Origin: Brevibacterium casei CIP 102111
Lineage (GTDB): Bacteria > Actinomycetota > Actinomycetes > Actinomycetales > Brevibacteriaceae
Direction: 5' to 3'
Length of the DNA: 64,000 bases
Assembly (NCBI RefSeq): GCF_900169275.1
Contig: NZ_FXZC01000007.1
Span: forward strand, 1 to 64,000
A model generated the notes under the pieces. It was not told the DNA's origin and made no database searches. It saw only the letters and a list, made by a program, of their open reading frames with translations. Positions 480-9,083 of the stretch are shown piece after piece; within the stretch, counting starts at the first letter, position 1, and every line of letters starts with the position of its first letter. Position numbers and translations under genes: made by a program.

Positions 480-869
480 CTATACGTACCGGCAGACCTG
501 GTCCGCGCTGCAGGTCTCGGGCTCGGGGTGCGCCGCGTCGTCCCGGAGGTTGGCGATGGTGTCGCGCAAGGCGGTGAGCTGGGCGATCTGCTGCTCGATG
601 TCGCGCAGGCGCGCGTCGAGCAGGTCTCGGACGTGGGCGCACGGGGCGTGGCCGGCGTCGCGGATGTCCACAATCTGGCGGATCTGGGCGAGCGTGAGGC
701 CGGCAGCCTGGCCGCGGTGGACGAAGTCGACGCGCGCGATTGCGTCCGGCGGGTAGTCGCGGTACCCCGACGACGTCCTGTCGGGCGGGGGGAGCAGCCC
801 CTGCTCTTCGTAGAACCTCAGCGTCTTCGCCGTGGTGCCGGCCGCCTCGGCGAATTCCCCGATCCTCAT
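480..869 (-). CDS. merR: MerR-family metal-responsive regulator of the mercury genes
   Basis: This is a 129-residue MerR-type activator. It has an N-terminal winged helix-turn-helix (MRIGEFAEAAGTTAKTLRFYE), a long dimerisation helix, and metal-binding cysteines at positions 77, 120 and 126. Cys77 is at the place where MerR and ZntR have a cysteine and CueR has a serine, which suggests a divalent metal such as Hg(II). The gene is divergent from merA, and a MerR-type operator lies between them at 899-930. The start at 869 was chosen because MRIGEF is the conserved family start. An in-frame ATG at 881 would add four residues. The precise metal is inferred from the neighbours. Confidence 0.85.
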   Translation of the reverse strand: MRIGEFAEAAGTTAKTLRFYEEQGLLPPPDRTSSGYRDYPPDAIARVDFVHRGQAAGLTLAQIRQIVDIRDAGHAPCAHVRDLLDARLRDIEQQIAQLTALRDTIANLRDDAAHPEPETCSADQVCRYV

Positions 870-2394: not shown

Positions 2395-2444
2395 CCCGAC
2401 CCGGAAGCAGCACCTGCCCGAACTCAGAAATGGAGGAAACCGAA

Positions 2445-3113
2445 ATGTCCGACCTCAGCACGCAACTGCCCGATCGGCTCAACAGGCCCGAGGAGACCGG
2501 CCTCGACCCCGGCCTGCTGGTCCCGCTGCTGCGGCTGCTCGTCGACGGCGACCCCGTCACGATCGAGCAGCTCGCCACCGCCGCCGGCCGCACCCCTGAG
2601 CAGGCCTGCAACGGACTGGCCGCCGTGCCCGACACTGAGTACGACGACCAGGGCCGCATCGTCGGCCAGGGCCTCACCCTGCGCCCGACCCCGCACCGAT
2701 TCGCCGTGGCCGATCAGGAGCTCTACACCTGGTGCGCCTTGGACACCCTGGTCTTCCCTGGCCTCCTCGACCGGGCGGCCCGCGTGGAGTCTGTCTCCCC
2801 GGCCAGCGGCGAGAGGATCGTCGTCGCCGTCAACGTCGACCCTGCCACCGGCGTCACCCGCGTCGAACCCGCGAGCGCCGTCGTGTCCCTGGTGAACCCG
2901 GAGCAGATCACCTCGATCCGCTCCTCGTTCTGCGACCAGGTGCACTACTTTACATCTGCAGACGACGCCGCCGGATGGCTCGCTGAGCACCCAGGGGCTC
3001 AAGCGGTGCCGGTGATCGAAGCCCATCGGATCGGCATCGAACTCGCTTCCCACCTGCTCGACCGGCTCCGGGCCGACGCCCAGACTGCCGACCGCTGCCA
3101 CCGCTGCTGCTAG
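2445..3113 (+). CDS. merB: Organomercurial lyase
   Basis: This 222-residue enzyme cleaves the carbon-mercury bond of organomercurials and hands Hg(II) to MerA. The catalytic residues are visible: C97 and D100 in LYTWCALDTL and C163 in SSFCDQVHYF, the equivalents of C96, D99 and C159 of the studied enzyme. The N-terminal part is a winged-helix-like domain of about 80 residues. The start at 2445 is preferred because ggagga lies just upstream. The earlier in-frame ATG at 2430 contains that ribosome site and is unlikely. It follows merA by 50 bp in the same transcription unit. Confidence 0.93.
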   Translation: MSDLSTQLPDRLNRPEETGLDPGLLVPLLRLLVDGDPVTIEQLATAAGRTPEQACNGLAAVPDTEYDDQGRIVGQGLTLRPTPHRFAVADQELYTWCALDTLVFPGLLDRAARVESVSPASGERIVVAVNVDPATGVTRVEPASAVVSLVNPEQITSIRSSFCDQVHYFTSADDAAGWLAEHPGAQAVPVIEAHRIGIELASHLLDRLRADAQTADRCHRCC

Positions 3114-3141: not shown

Positions 3142-3435
3142 ATGACGACCAGACGCGACGACCGACCCGGCGGCGGCCTGGTGCTCGGGGCAGGGGTCGT
3201 GCTCCTCATGGCACTGTGCTGCGGTCTGCCGCTGCTCATCGCCGGCGGCGTGCTCGCCGGCCTCGGCGGGATCCTCGCCAACCCCTGTGTGGTAGGCACC
3301 GGCATGGCGCTCGTGGTGCTCGTCGTACTCGCCGCCGCCCACCGCCGGACCCGCAGCGACCGCACCGGCCACGACTGCTGCCCGACCATTGATTCCGATC
3401 ATGCCACCGACACGAAGGAAGACCAGAACCTATGA
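3142..3435 (+). CDS. Small MerT/MerF-like membrane protein of the mercury operon
   Basis: This is a 97-residue protein with two predicted membrane helices (roughly 14-36 and 38-65). It has a vicinal cysteine pair in the first helix (LCCGLPLL), a further cysteine in ANPC at the second, and a cysteine pair in the soluble tail (HDCCP). Paired cysteines in or beside a helix are what MerT and MerF use to pass Hg(II) inwards. The protein is not a clear member of either family by eye, so the transporter role is inferred from these cysteines and from its place between merB and a redox lipoprotein. Its stop overlaps a possible ATG of the next gene at 3432. Confidence 0.6.
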   Translation: MTTRRDDRPGGGLVLGAGVVLLMALCCGLPLLIAGGVLAGLGGILANPCVVGTGMALVVLVVLAAAHRRTRSDRTGHDCCPTIDSDHATDTKEDQNL

Positions 3436-3480
3436 CCACCCCCCCTCACCCGCCGCGCGGCGCTCTCGTTCGCAGGCCTC

Positions 3481-3960
3481 ATGGTCGCAGGACCGCTGGT
3501 CCTGACCGCCTGCGGCAAATCTGACGACGCCGCGCCCACAGCCGATGTCGGCTCGCCCGCGGCCGTGACCAGCATCGACGGCAGGCAGGTCAGCCTGCCC
3601 GCCGCGGGGAAGCCCACCGCGGTGTTCTTCTTCTCTGTCGGCTGCGGCGAATGCGTCGGCGGGGTCCGATCCCTCGGCGAGGCCGCCGCCAGCGCGGAAG
3701 CGAACGGCACCGGTGCCGGATTCCTCGCCGTCGACATGGATCCGCGCGAAACCAAGGAGACTATCGAAGGCTTCATGAAATACGTCGAGGCTGAACGCGT
3801 CCCCGCCGCCATCGACCAGGGCGCAACCCTGTCCCAGCGATTCGACGTCGCCGCGCTATCCACGCTCATCATCGTCGATTCCGACGGCCGGGTGACTTTC
3901 CGCGCCACCGACCCCGACGCTGAGACGATCATCGGCGAGCTCGAAAAGGCCGGGGCCTGA
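3481..3960 (+). CDS. TlpA/ResA-like thioredoxin-fold lipoprotein, signal peptide out of frame
   Basis: This 159-residue thioredoxin-like protein has its redox motif CGEC (C55, C58) in VFFFSVGCGECVGG and a lipobox-like LTAC at its start. The reading frame is open upstream back to a stop at 3433-3435 and would encode PLTRRAALSFAGLM, a twin-arginine type signal. It has no start codon there. An ATG at 3432, overlapping the preceding stop, would supply the start if one C were removed from the run of seven C at 3439-3445. Either this is a one-base frameshift (real, variable, or a sequence error) or translation starts at 3481 with a shortened signal. It sits directly before a CcdA-like gene, its likely electron donor. 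Confidence 0.75.
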   Translation: MVAGPLVLTACGKSDDAAPTADVGSPAAVTSIDGRQVSLPAAGKPTAVFFFSVGCGECVGGVRSLGEAAASAEANGTGAGFLAVDMDPRETKETIEGFMKYVEAERVPAAIDQGATLSQRFDVAALSTLIIVDSDGRVTFRATDPDAETIIGELEKAGA

Positions 3961-3963
3961 GCC

Positions 3964-4881
3964 ATGGGTGGACTCCTTGCCCTCGCCTTCGCTGCCGGAA
4001 TGATCGCCCCGGTCAACCCCTGCGGTCTTGCACTGCTTCCGGCATGGATCACCCACGCGCTGGGCGACGCCGCATCCTCCCCGGCCCCGGTGCGCCTCCT
4101 GCGATCGCTGCGGGCAGGCCTCGCCGTGACAATCGGGTTCGCAGGCACGCTGGCGCTGGCGGGTATCGCTGTGAGTGCCGGAGCGCGGAGCCTGATCCAG
4201 GCCGCTCCAGCACTGGGGCTCGCCGTCGGCGTCGTGCTCGTCCTGTTCGGCGCGGCGATGCTGGCCGGTCGCTCGTTCTCGCTCCGGCTGCCCGGCATCC
4301 CCAGCCGGGTCACGGCGCGTCCGCCGAGCACCGCACGCATGGTCGTCTTCGGGGTCGGCTACGCCGCGGCGTCGCTGTCGTGCACCTTCGGAGTGTTCCT
4401 CGCCGTCGTCGCGCAGGCGCAGGCCACAGCCAGCTTCGCCGGCCTGCTCCTCGTCTTCGCCGTCTACGCCGCGGGATCCGCGAGCGTCCTGCTGCTCGTC
4501 GCCGTCACCGCTGCCGCTGCCGGTACGGCGCTCTCGCGACGCATTGCCTCACTGGCACGCTATGGCCCCAGGGTCACCGCCGCCGTGCTCATCCTCACCG
4601 GGGCCTACCTGGCCTGGTACTGGTACCCGGCCGTCACCGGTGACGCTTCAGCGTTCGGCCGCACCAATGCCGTCGCCGCGGTCGCAACTTCGGTGTCTGA
4701 CTGGGTCCAGGGGCACGTCGGCGTCGTGACCGGAGTGTCCGTCGCGGCCGTGTTCGTCGCGCTGCTGCTCGGAACCCTCGCCGGACGCCGTCCTATGTCC
4801 ATCTGGAAGGCCAATGGAGACTGCTGCGACGCCGAGCAAGCGCACTCTGCCGACGACCGGCCGAGCGCGACGACGGAGTGA
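3964..4881 (+). CDS. CcdA/DsbD-type membrane thiol-electron carrier
   Basis: This is a 305-residue polytopic membrane protein with the paired-cysteine halves of CcdA: C20 in APVNPCGLALLP and C140 in SLSCTFGVFL. CcdA-family proteins move electrons from cytoplasmic thioredoxin across the membrane to extracytoplasmic thioredoxin-like proteins. It starts 3 bp after the TlpA-like gene, so the two very likely work as a pair. A C-terminal tail after the last helix carries an extra cysteine pair (GDCCDAE), which is unusual for CcdA and could bind metal. A cytochrome c role is unlikely in this context. Confidence 0.85.
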   Translation: MGGLLALAFAAGMIAPVNPCGLALLPAWITHALGDAASSPAPVRLLRSLRAGLAVTIGFAGTLALAGIAVSAGARSLIQAAPALGLAVGVVLVLFGAAMLAGRSFSLRLPGIPSRVTARPPSTARMVVFGVGYAAASLSCTFGVFLAVVAQAQATASFAGLLLVFAVYAAGSASVLLLVAVTAAAAGTALSRRIASLARYGPRVTAAVLILTGAYLAWYWYPAVTGDASAFGRTNAVAAVATSVSDWVQGHVGVVTGVSVAAVFVALLLGTLAGRRPMSIWKANGDCCDAEQAHSADDRPSATTE

Positions 4882-5793: not shown

Positions 5794-6357
5794 TCACGGC
5801 TGGGCATTTCGTACGCGATGATTTTCGCCCGGCCTCGGCGAGGCGAGGTTCAGGCAGACCAGGCCGACACCGGCGACCACGAAGACGTCCGCGATGTTCC
5901 CGACGAAGAGGCTCCCGTAGGCGAGGAAGTCCGTGACGTGCCCTTGACCGATCGCGGGCGGGTTACCGAGCCGGTCGACGAGGTTGCCGACCGCACCGCC
6001 GAGGACCATGCCCAGGGCAAGGCCCCACCGCAAGCCCCGAAGCCGCGCGGCGAACACGACCACCGCCACCGAAGCGAGGACGCCGACGGCCGTGAAGATC
6101 CACGTCGATCCCGCGCCGAGCGAGAACGCGGCCCCGGGGTTGTAGACCAGGGACAGGCCGAACAAGTCGCCGAGCAGCGGGACCCGTTCGCCCGGCGTCA
6201 GCCGCGCGGCCGCGAGGGCCTTCGTCCCCTGGTCCAGAGCGAGGCCGAGCGCGCCGACGGCGAGAGCTGCGCCGACCGCCCGCCGGGTGGGAGGAGGCGG
6301 GGCCTTCTCGTCCGCGACGCCGGCGTCAGCCGTCTCGACGGCATCCGGCACGTTCAC
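5794..6357 (-). CDS. lspA: Lipoprotein signal peptidase (signal peptidase II) of the metal operon
   Basis: This 187-residue membrane aspartic protease removes signal peptides from prolipoproteins. The family motifs are present: NPGAAFS, GNLVDR with the first catalytic Asp, and a later FVGNIADVFVVAG with the second catalytic Asp, across four membrane helices. A GTG start at 6,357 overlaps the cadA stop by 4 bp (GTGA), so translation is coupled. Lead-resistance operons in other bacteria pair a P-type ATPase with an LspA-like protein (PbrC), which suggests this copy serves Pb/Cd resistance rather than general lipoprotein processing. The hydrophilic first 27 residues are longer than usual. Confidence 0.93.
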   Translation of the reverse strand: MNVPDAVETADAGVADEKAPPPPTRRAVGAALAVGALGLALDQGTKALAAARLTPGERVPLLGDLFGLSLVYNPGAAFSLGAGSTWIFTAVGVLASVAVVVFAARLRGLRWGLALGMVLGGAVGNLVDRLGNPPAIGQGHVTDFLAYGSLFVGNIADVFVVAGVGLVCLNLASPRPGENHRVRNAQP

Positions 6358-8264
6358 GAGGCGGTCTTCCTCGTCCTGGCGGCGCGGAGCCCGTTGAGGA
6401 TCACTATCACCTCGGCGATCTCGTGCACCAGCACCACCGCTGCGAGGCCGAGCACGCCGAACAGCGCCAGCGGCAGCAGCGCGGTGATGATCAGCAGGGA
6501 CAGGATGATGTTCTGGTTGATGATGTGCCTGCCGCGGCGGGCGTGGTCGAACGCGCGCGGGAGGAGTCGCAGGTCGTGGCCGGTGAAGGCGACGTCGGCG
6601 GACTCGATCGCGGCGTCGGAGCCGGTCGCGCCCATCGCGATGCCGATGTCCGCGGCGGCCAGGGCGGGGGCGTCGTTGATGCCGTCGCCGATCATCGCGA
6701 CCGAGCCGTGCCTGCCCAGCTCGCTGATCGCGGCGGCCTTGTCCTCGGGACGCAGCTCGGCGCGGACGTCCTCGATCCCGGCCTGCGCGGCCAGCGCCCG
6801 GGCGGTGCGGGCGTTGTCGCCGGTGAGCATCGTCACCCCGACGCCCTGGGCGGCGAGGGTGCGGACCACCTCGGGGACCTCGGGGCGCAGCTCGTCGCGG
6901 ACCCCGATCGCGGCGACCGGGACGTCGTCGCGGTGCACGATCACGACGGTCATGCCCTGCTCCTCCAAGCCCGCGACCTGGTCCTTGAGCGTCCCGGCGT
7001 CCAGCCAGCGGGGGCTGCCGACGGTGACCCGGGCCCCGTCGAGGGTGCCCTCGATGCCGTGCCCGGCCTGCTCGGTCACGTCCAGGGCGGCGGGGGCTCC
7101 GGGCGAGGCGGCGGTGATCGCGGCGGCCAGCGGGTGGGTGCTGTGCTGCTCCAGGGACGCCGCCCACGCCAATGCCCGCGCCTCGTCCACTCCGTCGGCG
7201 GTGAGGACGGCGGTAACGGCGGGCTCGTTGCGGGTGAGGGTGTCGGTCTTGTCGACGGCGACGTGGCGGATCACGCCGAACCGCTCGAACACGGCACCGG
7301 ATTTGATGATCACGCCGAATCTGCTCGCCGAGCCGATCGCGGCGACGACGGTCAGCGGGACGGAGATCGCCAGCGCGCACGGCGACGCGGCGACGAGCAC
7401 CACGAGGGCGCGGGTGATCCACAGCTCCGGGTCGCCCAGCAGCGAGCCGATGACCGCGACGAGAGCGGCGAGGATCAGCACGCCAGGCACGAGCGGCCGG
7501 GCGATGCGGTCGGCCAGGCGGGCACGGTCCCCCTTCTCGGCCTGCGCCTGCTCCACCAGCTCCACGATCGTGGTCAGCGAGTTGTCGGTACCCGCCGCGG
7601 TCGTCTCGACCTCCAGGGCACCGGCAGTGTTGATCGCCCCGGCCGACACCGCGTCGCCGGGCTCGACCTCCACCGGGATCGACTCCCCGGTGATCGCCGA
7701 GGTGTCCAGGCTCGACCGGCCCGTGCGGACGATCCCGTCGGTCGCGATCCGCTCACCCGGACGCACGAGCATCAGCTGACCAACGGCCAGATCCTTCGCG
7801 GCGACCTCCACGGACGCGCCATCCCGCCGGATGGTCGCGGTCTCCGGGACCAGCTTGAGCAGCGCCCGCAGCCCGCCGCGGGCGCGGTCCATCGCCTTGT
7901 CCTCCAGCGCCTCGGCGATCGAGTACAAGAACGCCAGCGCCGCGGCCTCCTCGACGTAGCCGAGGATGACCGCGCCCACCGCGCTGATCGTCATCAGCAG
8001 CCCGATGCCCAGCTTGCCCTTGAACAGCTTGCGGACCGCGCCCGGGGTGAACGTCGACGCACCCAGCAGCAGGCCGATCCAGAACGCCACCAGCGACGGG
8101 ATCTCCGCCCCCGTCCATTCCAGGACCAGGCCCGTGCCGAAGGCGACGCCGGAGAGCACCGGGACCATGATCCCGCGGTCACGCCACCACGGGCGCTCCC
8201 GCTCCTCCTCGGCCTCCTCGCCGACCCGGGTCTCCGGCTCGTCGCACCCGCACGCCGCGCTCAC
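6354..8264 (-). CDS. cadA: Heavy-metal-exporting P1B-type ATPase (Cd/Zn/Pb type)
   Basis: This is a 636-residue efflux ATPase. It has a short cysteine-containing N-terminus (ACGCDE) instead of a full metal-binding domain, the actuator motif TGES (about 192-195), the membrane metal site SPC (C296), the nucleotide-domain HP motif (HSTHPLAAA), GDGINDAPAL, and a late HEIAE in the last helices. The phosphorylation loop reads DKTDTLT (D338), where nearly all P-type ATPases have DKTGTLT. The reading of that codon (GAC) is clear. A GTG start at 8,264 overlaps the cmtR stop (GTGA). Cadmium/lead export is inferred from the CmtR-like regulator, and SPC with HEIAE leaves other divalent metals possible. 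Confidence 0.92.
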   Translation of the reverse strand: MSAACGCDEPETRVGEEAEEERERPWWRDRGIMVPVLSGVAFGTGLVLEWTGAEIPSLVAFWIGLLLGASTFTPGAVRKLFKGKLGIGLLMTISAVGAVILGYVEEAAALAFLYSIAEALEDKAMDRARGGLRALLKLVPETATIRRDGASVEVAAKDLAVGQLMLVRPGERIATDGIVRTGRSSLDTSAITGESIPVEVEPGDAVSAGAINTAGALEVETTAAGTDNSLTTIVELVEQAQAEKGDRARLADRIARPLVPGVLILAALVAVIGSLLGDPELWITRALVVLVAASPCALAISVPLTVVAAIGSASRFGVIIKSGAVFERFGVIRHVAVDKTDTLTRNEPAVTAVLTADGVDEARALAWAASLEQHSTHPLAAAITAASPGAPAALDVTEQAGHGIEGTLDGARVTVGSPRWLDAGTLKDQVAGLEEQGMTVVIVHRDDVPVAAIGVRDELRPEVPEVVRTLAAQGVGVTMLTGDNARTARALAAQAGIEDVRAELRPEDKAAAISELGRHGSVAMIGDGINDAPALAAADIGIAMGATGSDAAIESADVAFTGHDLRLLPRAFDHARRGRHIINQNIILSLLIITALLPLALFGVLGLAAVVLVHEIAEVIVILNGLRAARTRKTAS

Positions 8265-8620
8265 GCGCCCGCTCCAGTCCCGCAGCAGCCCGGCACCGTG
8301 CACTCGGCGTCCACGCACGGCGCGTGCTCGTCCACGGCCAGCGTCACGTCCACCAGCGCCGTGAGCGCCGCCGCGAGGTGCGGGTCGGCGATCTCGTAGC
8401 GCGTCTGCCGCCCCTCGGGCTCGGCGACCACGATCCCGCAGTCACGAAGACAGGTCAGGTGGTTCGACACGTTCGAGCGCGTCAGCTCCAGCTCGCGCGA
8501 GAGCACGGCCGGGTAGCTCGGCCCGTCCAACAGGGTCATCAGGATCCGGGAGCGCGTCGGGTCCGCCATGGCCCGGCCCAGCCGGTTCATGACGTCGAGG
8601 CGAGAAGCAATAGTCAGCAT
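8261..8620 (-). CDS. cmtR: ArsR/SmtB-family Cd(II)/Pb(II) repressor
   Basis: This 119-residue winged-helix repressor matches the CmtR type closely. C57 and C61 lie in the recognition helix (NHLTCLRDCGIV) and C102 in the tail, the same positions that bind Cd(II) or Pb(II) in the mycobacterial protein. Three more cysteines (C107, C112, C113) follow. Metal binding should release DNA and derepress the cmtR-cadA-lspA operon. The ATG at 8,620 has no Shine-Dalgarno sequence. A -10 (TATAGT, minus strand, 8,628-8,633) lies seven bases upstream, so the mRNA is probably leaderless. A CAGC-CATT-GCTG dyad just upstream may be the operator. Confidence 0.9.
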   Translation of the reverse strand: MLTIASRLDVMNRLGRAMADPTRSRILMTLLDGPSYPAVLSRELELTRSNVSNHLTCLRDCGIVVAEPEGRQTRYEIADPHLAAALTALVDVTLAVDEHAPCVDAECTVPGCCGTGAGA

Positions 8621-8627
8621 GCACTGA

Positions 8628-8646
8628 ACTATACAGCAATGGCTGA
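8628..8646 (-). promoter_or_regulatory. cmtR promoter -10 and possible operator
   Basis: On the minus strand TATAGT (8,628-8,633) is placed for a transcript beginning at or near the ATG of cmtR. Directly upstream is the short dyad CAGC-CATT-GCTG (about 8,635-8,646), which would put a repressor across the promoter. This is read from spacing only. Confidence 0.45.
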
Positions 8647-8657
8647 CCTATTGGCTA

Positions 8658-9083
8658 TTACTGATGGGGCACCGGCGCGGTCCGTGCGAAGGCCCGGAAC
8701 GCGCACTCGGACCGGCACTGCTCGTCGCTGTCCGGGCAGTCGTCGACGTGGGCCTGCGCCGCGCTCAGTTGTTCCTGGAGTACGGTCAGGATGCTGATCT
8801 GCCGTTCGACGGCGGCGATCTGCTCGGCCAGCAGCGGCTGCAGCGCGACCTTGACGCCGGTGCAGGTGCCCGTGTCGGCGAGCTCCAAGAGGCGGCGGAT
8901 CTCGGGCAGTTCGAGTCCGAGCCGCTTGGCTGAAGCGATGAAGTCGAGCCGCTCGAGGTGGCCCTCGTCGAAGTCCCGGTATCCGTTCGGGCTCCGGCGC
9001 GCCGCGAGGAAGCCGAGGCGCTCGTAGTAGCGCAGCGTGCTCGCCGGCACTCCGCTGCGCTCGGCGACCTCGGAGATCTTCAT
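8658..9083 (-). CDS. MerR-family metal-responsive regulator
   Basis: This 141-residue MerR-type protein has a typical helix-turn-helix start (MKISEVAERSGVPASTLRYYE), a dimerisation helix, and cysteines at 74, 116, 123 and 127 (TGTCTG and DDCPDSDEQCRSEC). Cys74 lies in the region where divalent-metal sensors have a cysteine. The four-cysteine arrangement differs from the MerR at 480-869, so it probably senses a different ion. It is divergent from the transporter at 9,189, with a MerR-type promoter between them at 9,108-9,139. Its natural inducer cannot be told from sequence. Confidence 0.88.
   Translation of the reverse strand: MKISEVAERSGVPASTLRYYERLGFLAARRSPNGYRDFDEGHLERLDFIASAKRLGLELPEIRRLLELADTGTCTGVKVALQPLLAEQIAAVERQISILTVLQEQLSAAQAHVDDCPDSDEQCRSECAFRAFARTAPVPHQ

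Follow-up and report, generated by a model that had tools for sequence, protein, structure and literature searches.

A TlpA-like lipoprotein and a CcdA-like membrane protein in an actinomycete mer operon, candidate partners in Hg(II) acquisition

A tlpA-ccdA gene pair is part of a mer operon in Brevibacterium casei CIP 102111: a divergent merR is followed by merA, merB, a gene for a two-transmembrane (two-TM) MerT/MerF-like protein, tlpA and ccdA. All of them lie in the window, the stretch of 64,000 nucleotides analysed here. We propose that the MerT/MerF-like, TlpA-like and CcdA-like proteins may together be the part of a Gram-positive type mer operon that acquires Hg(II), a reading to which sequence comparison gives roughly even odds (a probability of about 0.5). 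Hg(II) handling is favoured by three features: the lipoprotein lacks the cis-proline, the CcdA-like protein has a Cys-Cys (CC) tail, and no MerP over cut-off was found.

Gene organisation and linkage to mer genes

The merR-type regulator (480-869, reverse strand) matches Pfam MerR_1 above its cut-off (70.6 bits) and stays below the cut-offs of all NCBIfam equivalogs, with CadR-PbrR the best (101.5 of 151.45 bits) and MerR at 85.8 of 150.85. Between it and merA lies the palindrome ACCTTCC-N8-GGAAGGT (902-923), the presumed operator of a MerR-family regulator: it is perfect, is the sole match in the window at up to one mismatch, and never occurred in 100 shuffles. A sigma-70 scan 5' of merA found no site.

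Five genes then run on the forward strand, separated by 35, 28, -4 (counted from the ATG at 3432) and 3 bases. They encode the mercury(II) reductase MerA, which ends in Cys-Cys-Ala (973-2394; TIGR02053, 545.7 bits, cut-off 454.45), and the organomercurial lyase MerB, which ends in CHRCC (2430-3113; NF009710, 271.3 bits, cut-off 193; NF033555 also over cut-off). Next come a 97-residue two-TM protein with two CC pairs (3142-3435), recognised as MerT/MerF-like by its conserved cysteines and by hhalign, and the TlpA-like lipoprotein, whose thioredoxin-fold body spans 3481-3960 (Pfam Redoxin, 35.5 bits, cut-off 26.6). The last is a mer-type CcdA-like membrane protein of 305 residues (3964-4881). 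Profile matches and conservation rule out chance reading frames, and the arrangement described in the earlier note is all present: a CGEC thioredoxin-fold lipoprotein and a CC-tailed CcdA-like protein after merA-merB and a small CC membrane protein. The adjoining reverse-strand stretch of the window (5797-9083) holds genes for lipoprotein signal peptidase II (Peptidase_A8, 96.4 bits), a P-type metal ATPase, a second MerR-family protein and a CmtR-type Cd/Pb regulator (NF047906 over cut-off).

Scanning genome contigs for CcdA relatives with short exact peptide patterns, which favour close relatives, gave 57 loci. Fifty-four of them adjoin merA or merB (MerA at least 59% or MerB at least 47% identical to those of the window). 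The other three comprise two contig ends that leave the TlpA match preceded by no more than about 1.1 kb of DNA (L037, L038) and a protein only 28% identical (L059). The co-occurrence with mer genes that the earlier note had put forward is thereby borne out: mer genes accompany the pair elsewhere, mer-type CcdA proteins group in the tree described below, and the pair is not found mainly beside cytochrome c genes.

The association of the pair with merA is not universal. MerA exceeded its cut-off in 32 of 394 actinomycete genomes. The sample comprised 41 merA places (39 over cut-off and two partial ones below it), each viewed over at most about 8 kb on either side and several cut by contig ends. 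TlpA-like and CcdA-like genes are nearby at 15 of these places and the pair is missing at 26, under a rule that allowed at most 4 kb between the MerA frame and TlpA and 5 kb between it and CcdA, and that leaves L106 narrowly outside; a MerT-like gene occurs at 20. Two more merA places in the window's own genome, L100 (G000:C5) and L101 (G000:C13), lack the pair; their MerA is 72% and 81% identical to that of the window. Judging by reading frames, the merA of L100 is seemingly followed directly by transposase-like genes and that of L101 by just a short merB piece. Plasmid pACHL02 of Pseudarthrobacter chlorophenolicus (L093) carries two TlpA-CcdA pairs of the window's clade and several MerT-like small proteins; merA was not seen there within 12.7 kb.

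The TlpA-like lipoprotein and its cis-proline position

AlphaFold2 predicts a confident thioredoxin fold for the lipoprotein (mean pLDDT 87.3, residues 1-22 low), for which Foldseek ranks StoA and ResA-type proteins first. The CxxC of this fold is a CGEC motif (residues 55-58; 3643-3654) with both cysteines invariant in 29 of 29 alignment rows. The cis-proline that faces the CxxC in TlpA/ResA proteins is replaced by Ser127 (3859-3861): when its profile is aligned with thioredoxin folds of solved structure, the Ser of LSTLI comes to stand opposite the Pro found in Etrx2, StoA and ResA-type proteins (IPTEY, IPTSF and LPTSF).

Close relatives share this loss. Of the close frames from the window and the genome contigs that have the column, which L021 lacks, 56 of 56 are non-Pro there, a set that includes many identical proteins and amounts to 35 distinct ones. 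At other mer loci the residue is Ser, Gly, Glu or Asp, Glu being that of both staphylococcal plasmids and Asp that of Paenibacillus. Pro is retained in the mer members L102, L106 and L112, in both TlpA-like proteins of L109 and in the non-mer L095, while L097-L099 have Thr in the column and Pro one residue earlier. Since deeper mer branches keep the cis-proline, a redox pair may have come first. The controls were thioredoxin folds that adjoin canonical CcdA or are fused to it: all 26 (from 32 control loci; seven are domains within the CcdA-like frame) have Pro, with a possible bias from the search profile, whose nine proteins were all Pro; a first look with the mer profile, less biased on this point, gave Pro in 10 of 10. 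The Trp that precedes CxxC is a weaker feature: the window's lipoprotein lacks it, but so do nine of the 26 controls.

Two sources, both citing Su et al. 2007, connect this proline with metals: the cis-proline possibly prevents metal binding to CxxC (PMC2757866), and human TRX1 mutated at this residue can acquire an Fe-S cluster (PMC8161271).

The gene of the window's strain is disturbed at its 5' end (3432-3480). The earlier note had tlpA start at 3432; an ATG is present there, overlapping the stop of the upstream gene, but the TlpA body is in another frame, the break lying at a run of C (3439-3445). The frame of the signal peptide opens directly after a stop and offers no ATG, GTG or TTG before 3481, so that its Arg-rich start is lost. 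With the 5' end out of frame, the window's copy may be defective and its lipoprotein improperly made. The chance that tlpA is broken and the module incomplete in this strain is somewhat below even, and this reading is compatible with any of the functional readings below. In its favour, the same break occurs in Brevibacterium sp. XM4083 (L003), all six proteins of which are 100% identical to those of the window. On the other side, an assembly error or slippage at the homopolymer is possible, and the remaining frame is open with a product 99-100% identical to intact relatives; tlpA is intact in the near-identical copies L004 and L005, the latter from Glutamicibacter nicotianae NBRC 14234.

The two membrane proteins and the missing MerP

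The 'CcdA-type' identity comes from relatives annotated as CcdA, two conserved TM cysteines and the tree: no Pfam family matched the protein at E<=1, DsbD_TM included, a model that finds two other CcdA loci in the same genome. As in CcdA/DsbD carriers, one cysteine lies in TM1 (Cys20, in VNPCG; 4021-4023) and one in TM4 (Cys140, in LSCTFG; 4381-4383), both invariant in 29 of 29 rows. The context of the second is SCTFG or close to it in the mer type versus mostly PCxGP in canonical CcdA. Window-type proteins continue with a further hydrophobic segment at about residues 252-272 and then basic residues; in the window's own protein this extension (4717-4827) comprises a segment at 252-270, basic residues and Cys287-Cys288 (4822-4827). 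There are probably seven TM segments, and the positive-inside rule would place the C-terminal end in the cytosol. The AlphaFold2 model (mean pLDDT 57) is too poor for a fold search, and a PDB sequence search with the CcdA profile gave no match at E<=1.

The tail carries a CC pair in 39 of 48 distinct complete mer-type CcdA proteins and lacks it in nine, this set being defined by E<=1e-60, at least 270 residues and Cys at position 20, which excludes the shorter staphylococcal types by design. Canonical CcdA has no CC within 80 residues after the domain (0 of 32). The CC pair, not tail length, is distinctive: four controls (L002, L150, L158, L163) have long tails with more hydrophobic segments. 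Two staphylococcal members and one from Paenibacillus (219-226 residues) have no C-terminal extension. The fragments L058 and L059 were omitted from the CcdA alignment. We also considered an origin of the tail from the MerT-like protein and do not claim it: the window's own tail scored 10.7 bits, under the 99th percentile of shuffles (12.2), and the best three of 29 tails reached 25.0, 24.8 and 22.7 bits, where the top score among 5800 shuffles was 23.6.

A tree built from 62 cores puts the 32 mer-labelled rows on one side of a weakly supported branch (84/41; 83% of 200 bootstrap trees), a label that includes L093 (without a merA seen in 12.7 kb) and L109 (with merB and no gene annotated merA). 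With the non-mer sister L095 included on the mer side, support is 96/89. Mer-type rows group together across Actinomycetota, Bacillota and others.

The neighbour at 3142-3435 has the architecture of MerT/MerF: two TM segments, a CC pair in TM1 (codons 3217-3222) and another in the tail (3376-3381). In its family C26 and C27 are invariant (18 of 18), C79 and C80 at least 90% conserved. No Pfam or NCBIfam Mer transporter model was listed for it at E<=1; hhalign related the family to MerF (90.5%), to a staphylococcal homologue (97.6%) and to the MerT of pI258 (95.8%, 36 columns), and the family also finds annotated Leisingera merT-family and merF frames (E 0.0027 and 0.0012). A PDB search with the MerT-like profile gave four matches (E 0.0017 to 0.45), to cytochrome c oxidase polypeptide 4 and a peptidoglycan recognition protein, which we judged unrelated; MerF was not among them.

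In the textbook picture Hg(II) enters through MerP and MerT, MerP being an HMA-fold protein. The MerP and MerT models exceeded their cut-offs in none of the 32 actinomycete merA genomes, the MerP cut-off being strict, and weaker HMA-type matches occur in 31 of the 32. By our reading, many of these belong to, or adjoin, frames as long as those of metal ATPases. Of those we noticed, the closest to a merA is a 99-residue frame about 3.5 kb away (G298:C13, 38.5 bits), which adjoins an 872-residue frame that also matches.

Proposed role and comparison with known systems

Hg(II) capture is favoured over a pure electron relay by the MerT-like importer next door, by the empty slot of MerP and by a change in the TlpA-like protein of the kind expected of a metal-binding thioredoxin fold. 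From the cis-proline loss and the gene context we infer that the lipoprotein may be a MerP-like Hg(II) carrier. Standing in for MerP at the cell surface, it would hold Hg(II) between the CGEC thiolates, unshielded by a cis-proline, and pass it to the paired membrane cysteines of the MerT/MerF-like protein, the CcdA-like protein or both; the CcdA-like protein may also keep the lipoprotein dithiol reduced with cytosolic electrons. If the tails of the two membrane proteins lie in the cytosol, as the positive-inside rule would have it, their CC pairs would then give Hg(II) to MerA, itself CC-ended.

Such a module gains from the mer linkage of the pair (54 of 57), from the contrast between close frames and controls at the cis-proline (56 of 56 lost, 26 of 26 kept) and in the CC tail (39 of 48 versus 0 of 32), from the lack of MerP and MerT over cut-off and from its retention in pI258 and Streptomyces. 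Public records already name such proteins 'mercury transporter': a table in a 2025 review lists actinomycete proteins with TrxA or CcdA regions under that name or as 'mercury resistance operon ORF3' (PMC12195606). Against it, no redox cysteine has been lost, and structurally the closest proteins, StoA and ResA, are reductases. The cis-proline persists in L102, L106, L112 and both proteins of L109, or lies one residue earlier (L097-L099); the CC tail is missing in nine of 48 proteins and in the tail-less staphylococcal and Paenibacillus CcdA; 26 of 41 merA places do without the pair. The MerP count, too, depends on a strict cut-off with weaker HMA-type matches in 31 of 32 genomes, and one Leisingera operon has merP and CcdA together.

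The earlier note had put forward a thiol relay that could keep mercury-handling cysteines reduced or repair proteins damaged by Hg(II); none of the observations speaks for repair. In a reductant relay, the CcdA-like protein would feed cytosolic electrons to the lipoprotein and MerT-like or other surface thiols would be kept reduced under Hg(II) stress, no Hg(II) passing through the pair. We consider this relay a serious possibility, short of probable. It agrees with the conserved CxxC and TM cysteines, with a fold closest to StoA/ResA, with the cis-proline of deeper mer members and with the Leisingera operon, where CcdA accompanies merT, merP and merF without a TlpA, as if it could serve MerP. 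The relay is at odds with the cis-proline loss in the window's clade and the shifted context of the second cysteine, and electron transfer would hardly need a CC tail. The pair has kept every redox cysteine, but cis-proline loss, CC tail and lack of a MerP point more towards handling of Hg(II) itself. Capture and relay could both be true at once, because a dithiol outside the cytoplasm can bind Hg(II) only in its reduced form. The Leisingera case would also fit MerP and TlpA as interchangeable partners, a single case that the relay fits equally.

A bolder version of Hg(II) capture, which we consider unlikely, has cis-proline loss turn the CxxC into an Hg(II) site, making a MerP from a TlpA. 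The CcdA scaffold would then move Hg(II) inward by its ancestral dithiol exchange, using the TM cysteine pair, the extra C-terminal helix and the CC tail.

If the lipoprotein does fill MerP's place, it would be a natural counterpart of the engineered cis-proline loss that lets a metal cofactor into thioredoxin; the CcdA may then be an electron carrier put to use for a metal.

That the pair are envelope or cytochrome c thiol housekeeping genes merely travelling with mer is very improbable: relatives are annotated 'cytochrome c biogenesis protein CcdA' and the non-mer sister L095 adjoins a gene annotated as cytochrome c oxidase assembly protein, but the mer linkage, the grouping of mer-type CcdA across phyla and the two other CcdA proteins in the genome, which match the canonical Pfam model as the mer one does not, speak against it and rule out plain cytochrome c maturation.

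The novelty of the pair is limited to the Gram-negative picture. Its absence from the classical mer gene set, as claimed in the earlier note, holds for the Gram-negative set and fails for Gram-positives: Staphylococcus aureus pI258 has the order merR, TlpA, CcdA, MerT, merA, merB, a second S. aureus plasmid has merR, small CC protein, TlpA, CcdA, merA, and tblastn with the staphylococcal mer CcdA matched 52 plasmid records, 35 of them from Staphylococcus. Deletion work on pI258 has reportedly been done; in the open literature searched we found no experiments on the TlpA/CcdA pair of a mer operon, and older work may exist. In Streptomyces longwoodensis, merA-merB are divergent from a row of genes for an ArsR-type regulator, a small CC protein, a thioredoxin-like protein and CcdA. 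This order suggests what the 'merT' and 'merP' of S. lividans, described as carrying merAB and merRTP (PMC5312570), may be: the small CC protein and the thioredoxin-like protein, respectively. The word thioredoxin does not occur in a survey of merP, merT, merC, merF and others (PMC3466566).

Variants of the cluster were also seen. The S. longwoodensis plasmid (L062) has a vitamin K epoxide reductase family gene after ccdA (7006-7641) and a second mercuric reductase downstream. In an alphaproteobacterial plasmid of Leisingera aquaemixtae (L096), merT, merP, merF, merA and merB precede a CcdA of the window's kind, and no TlpA match was found in the cluster. In pDrdI of Deinococcus wulumuqiensis (L109), CcdA stands between the two cis-proline-containing TlpA-like genes, beside merB and a gene annotated lpdA.

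Compared with ResA, StoA and TlpA oxidoreductases, the lipoprotein has the same membrane-anchored CxxC thioredoxin fold and a CcdA partner, and differs in lacking the cis-proline and the Trp before CxxC. It resembles MerP in proposed role alone: the folds differ (thioredoxin versus HMA), and the lipoprotein matches Redoxin, not an HMA model. Likewise, the CcdA-like protein has its two TM cysteines where CcdA/DsbD carriers have theirs, and is unlike them in the lack of a Pfam match, the altered second-cysteine context and the CC-bearing C-terminal extension. The two-TM neighbour shares with Gram-negative MerF/MerT the two TM segments and both CC pairs, but remains under the Pfam thresholds. Another parallel is Scs (suppressor of copper sensitivity), in which a DsbD-like membrane protein and thioredoxin-fold partners (ScsB/ScsC/ScsD) serve metal tolerance; it differs in acting on copper and in being Gram-negative.

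The closest systems are Gram-positive. S. longwoodensis combines the same small CC protein, thioredoxin-like protein and CcdA in a mer cluster, with a divergent layout and an ArsR-type regulator where the window has MerR and a single direction of transcription. As in the window, pI258 clusters a TlpA-like protein without cis-proline (Glu instead) and a CcdA-like protein with merR, a two-TM CC-pair MerT, merA and merB; it differs in gene order, in a TlpA-like protein that retains the Trp before CxxC and in a CcdA of 226 residues without C-terminal extension or CC tail.
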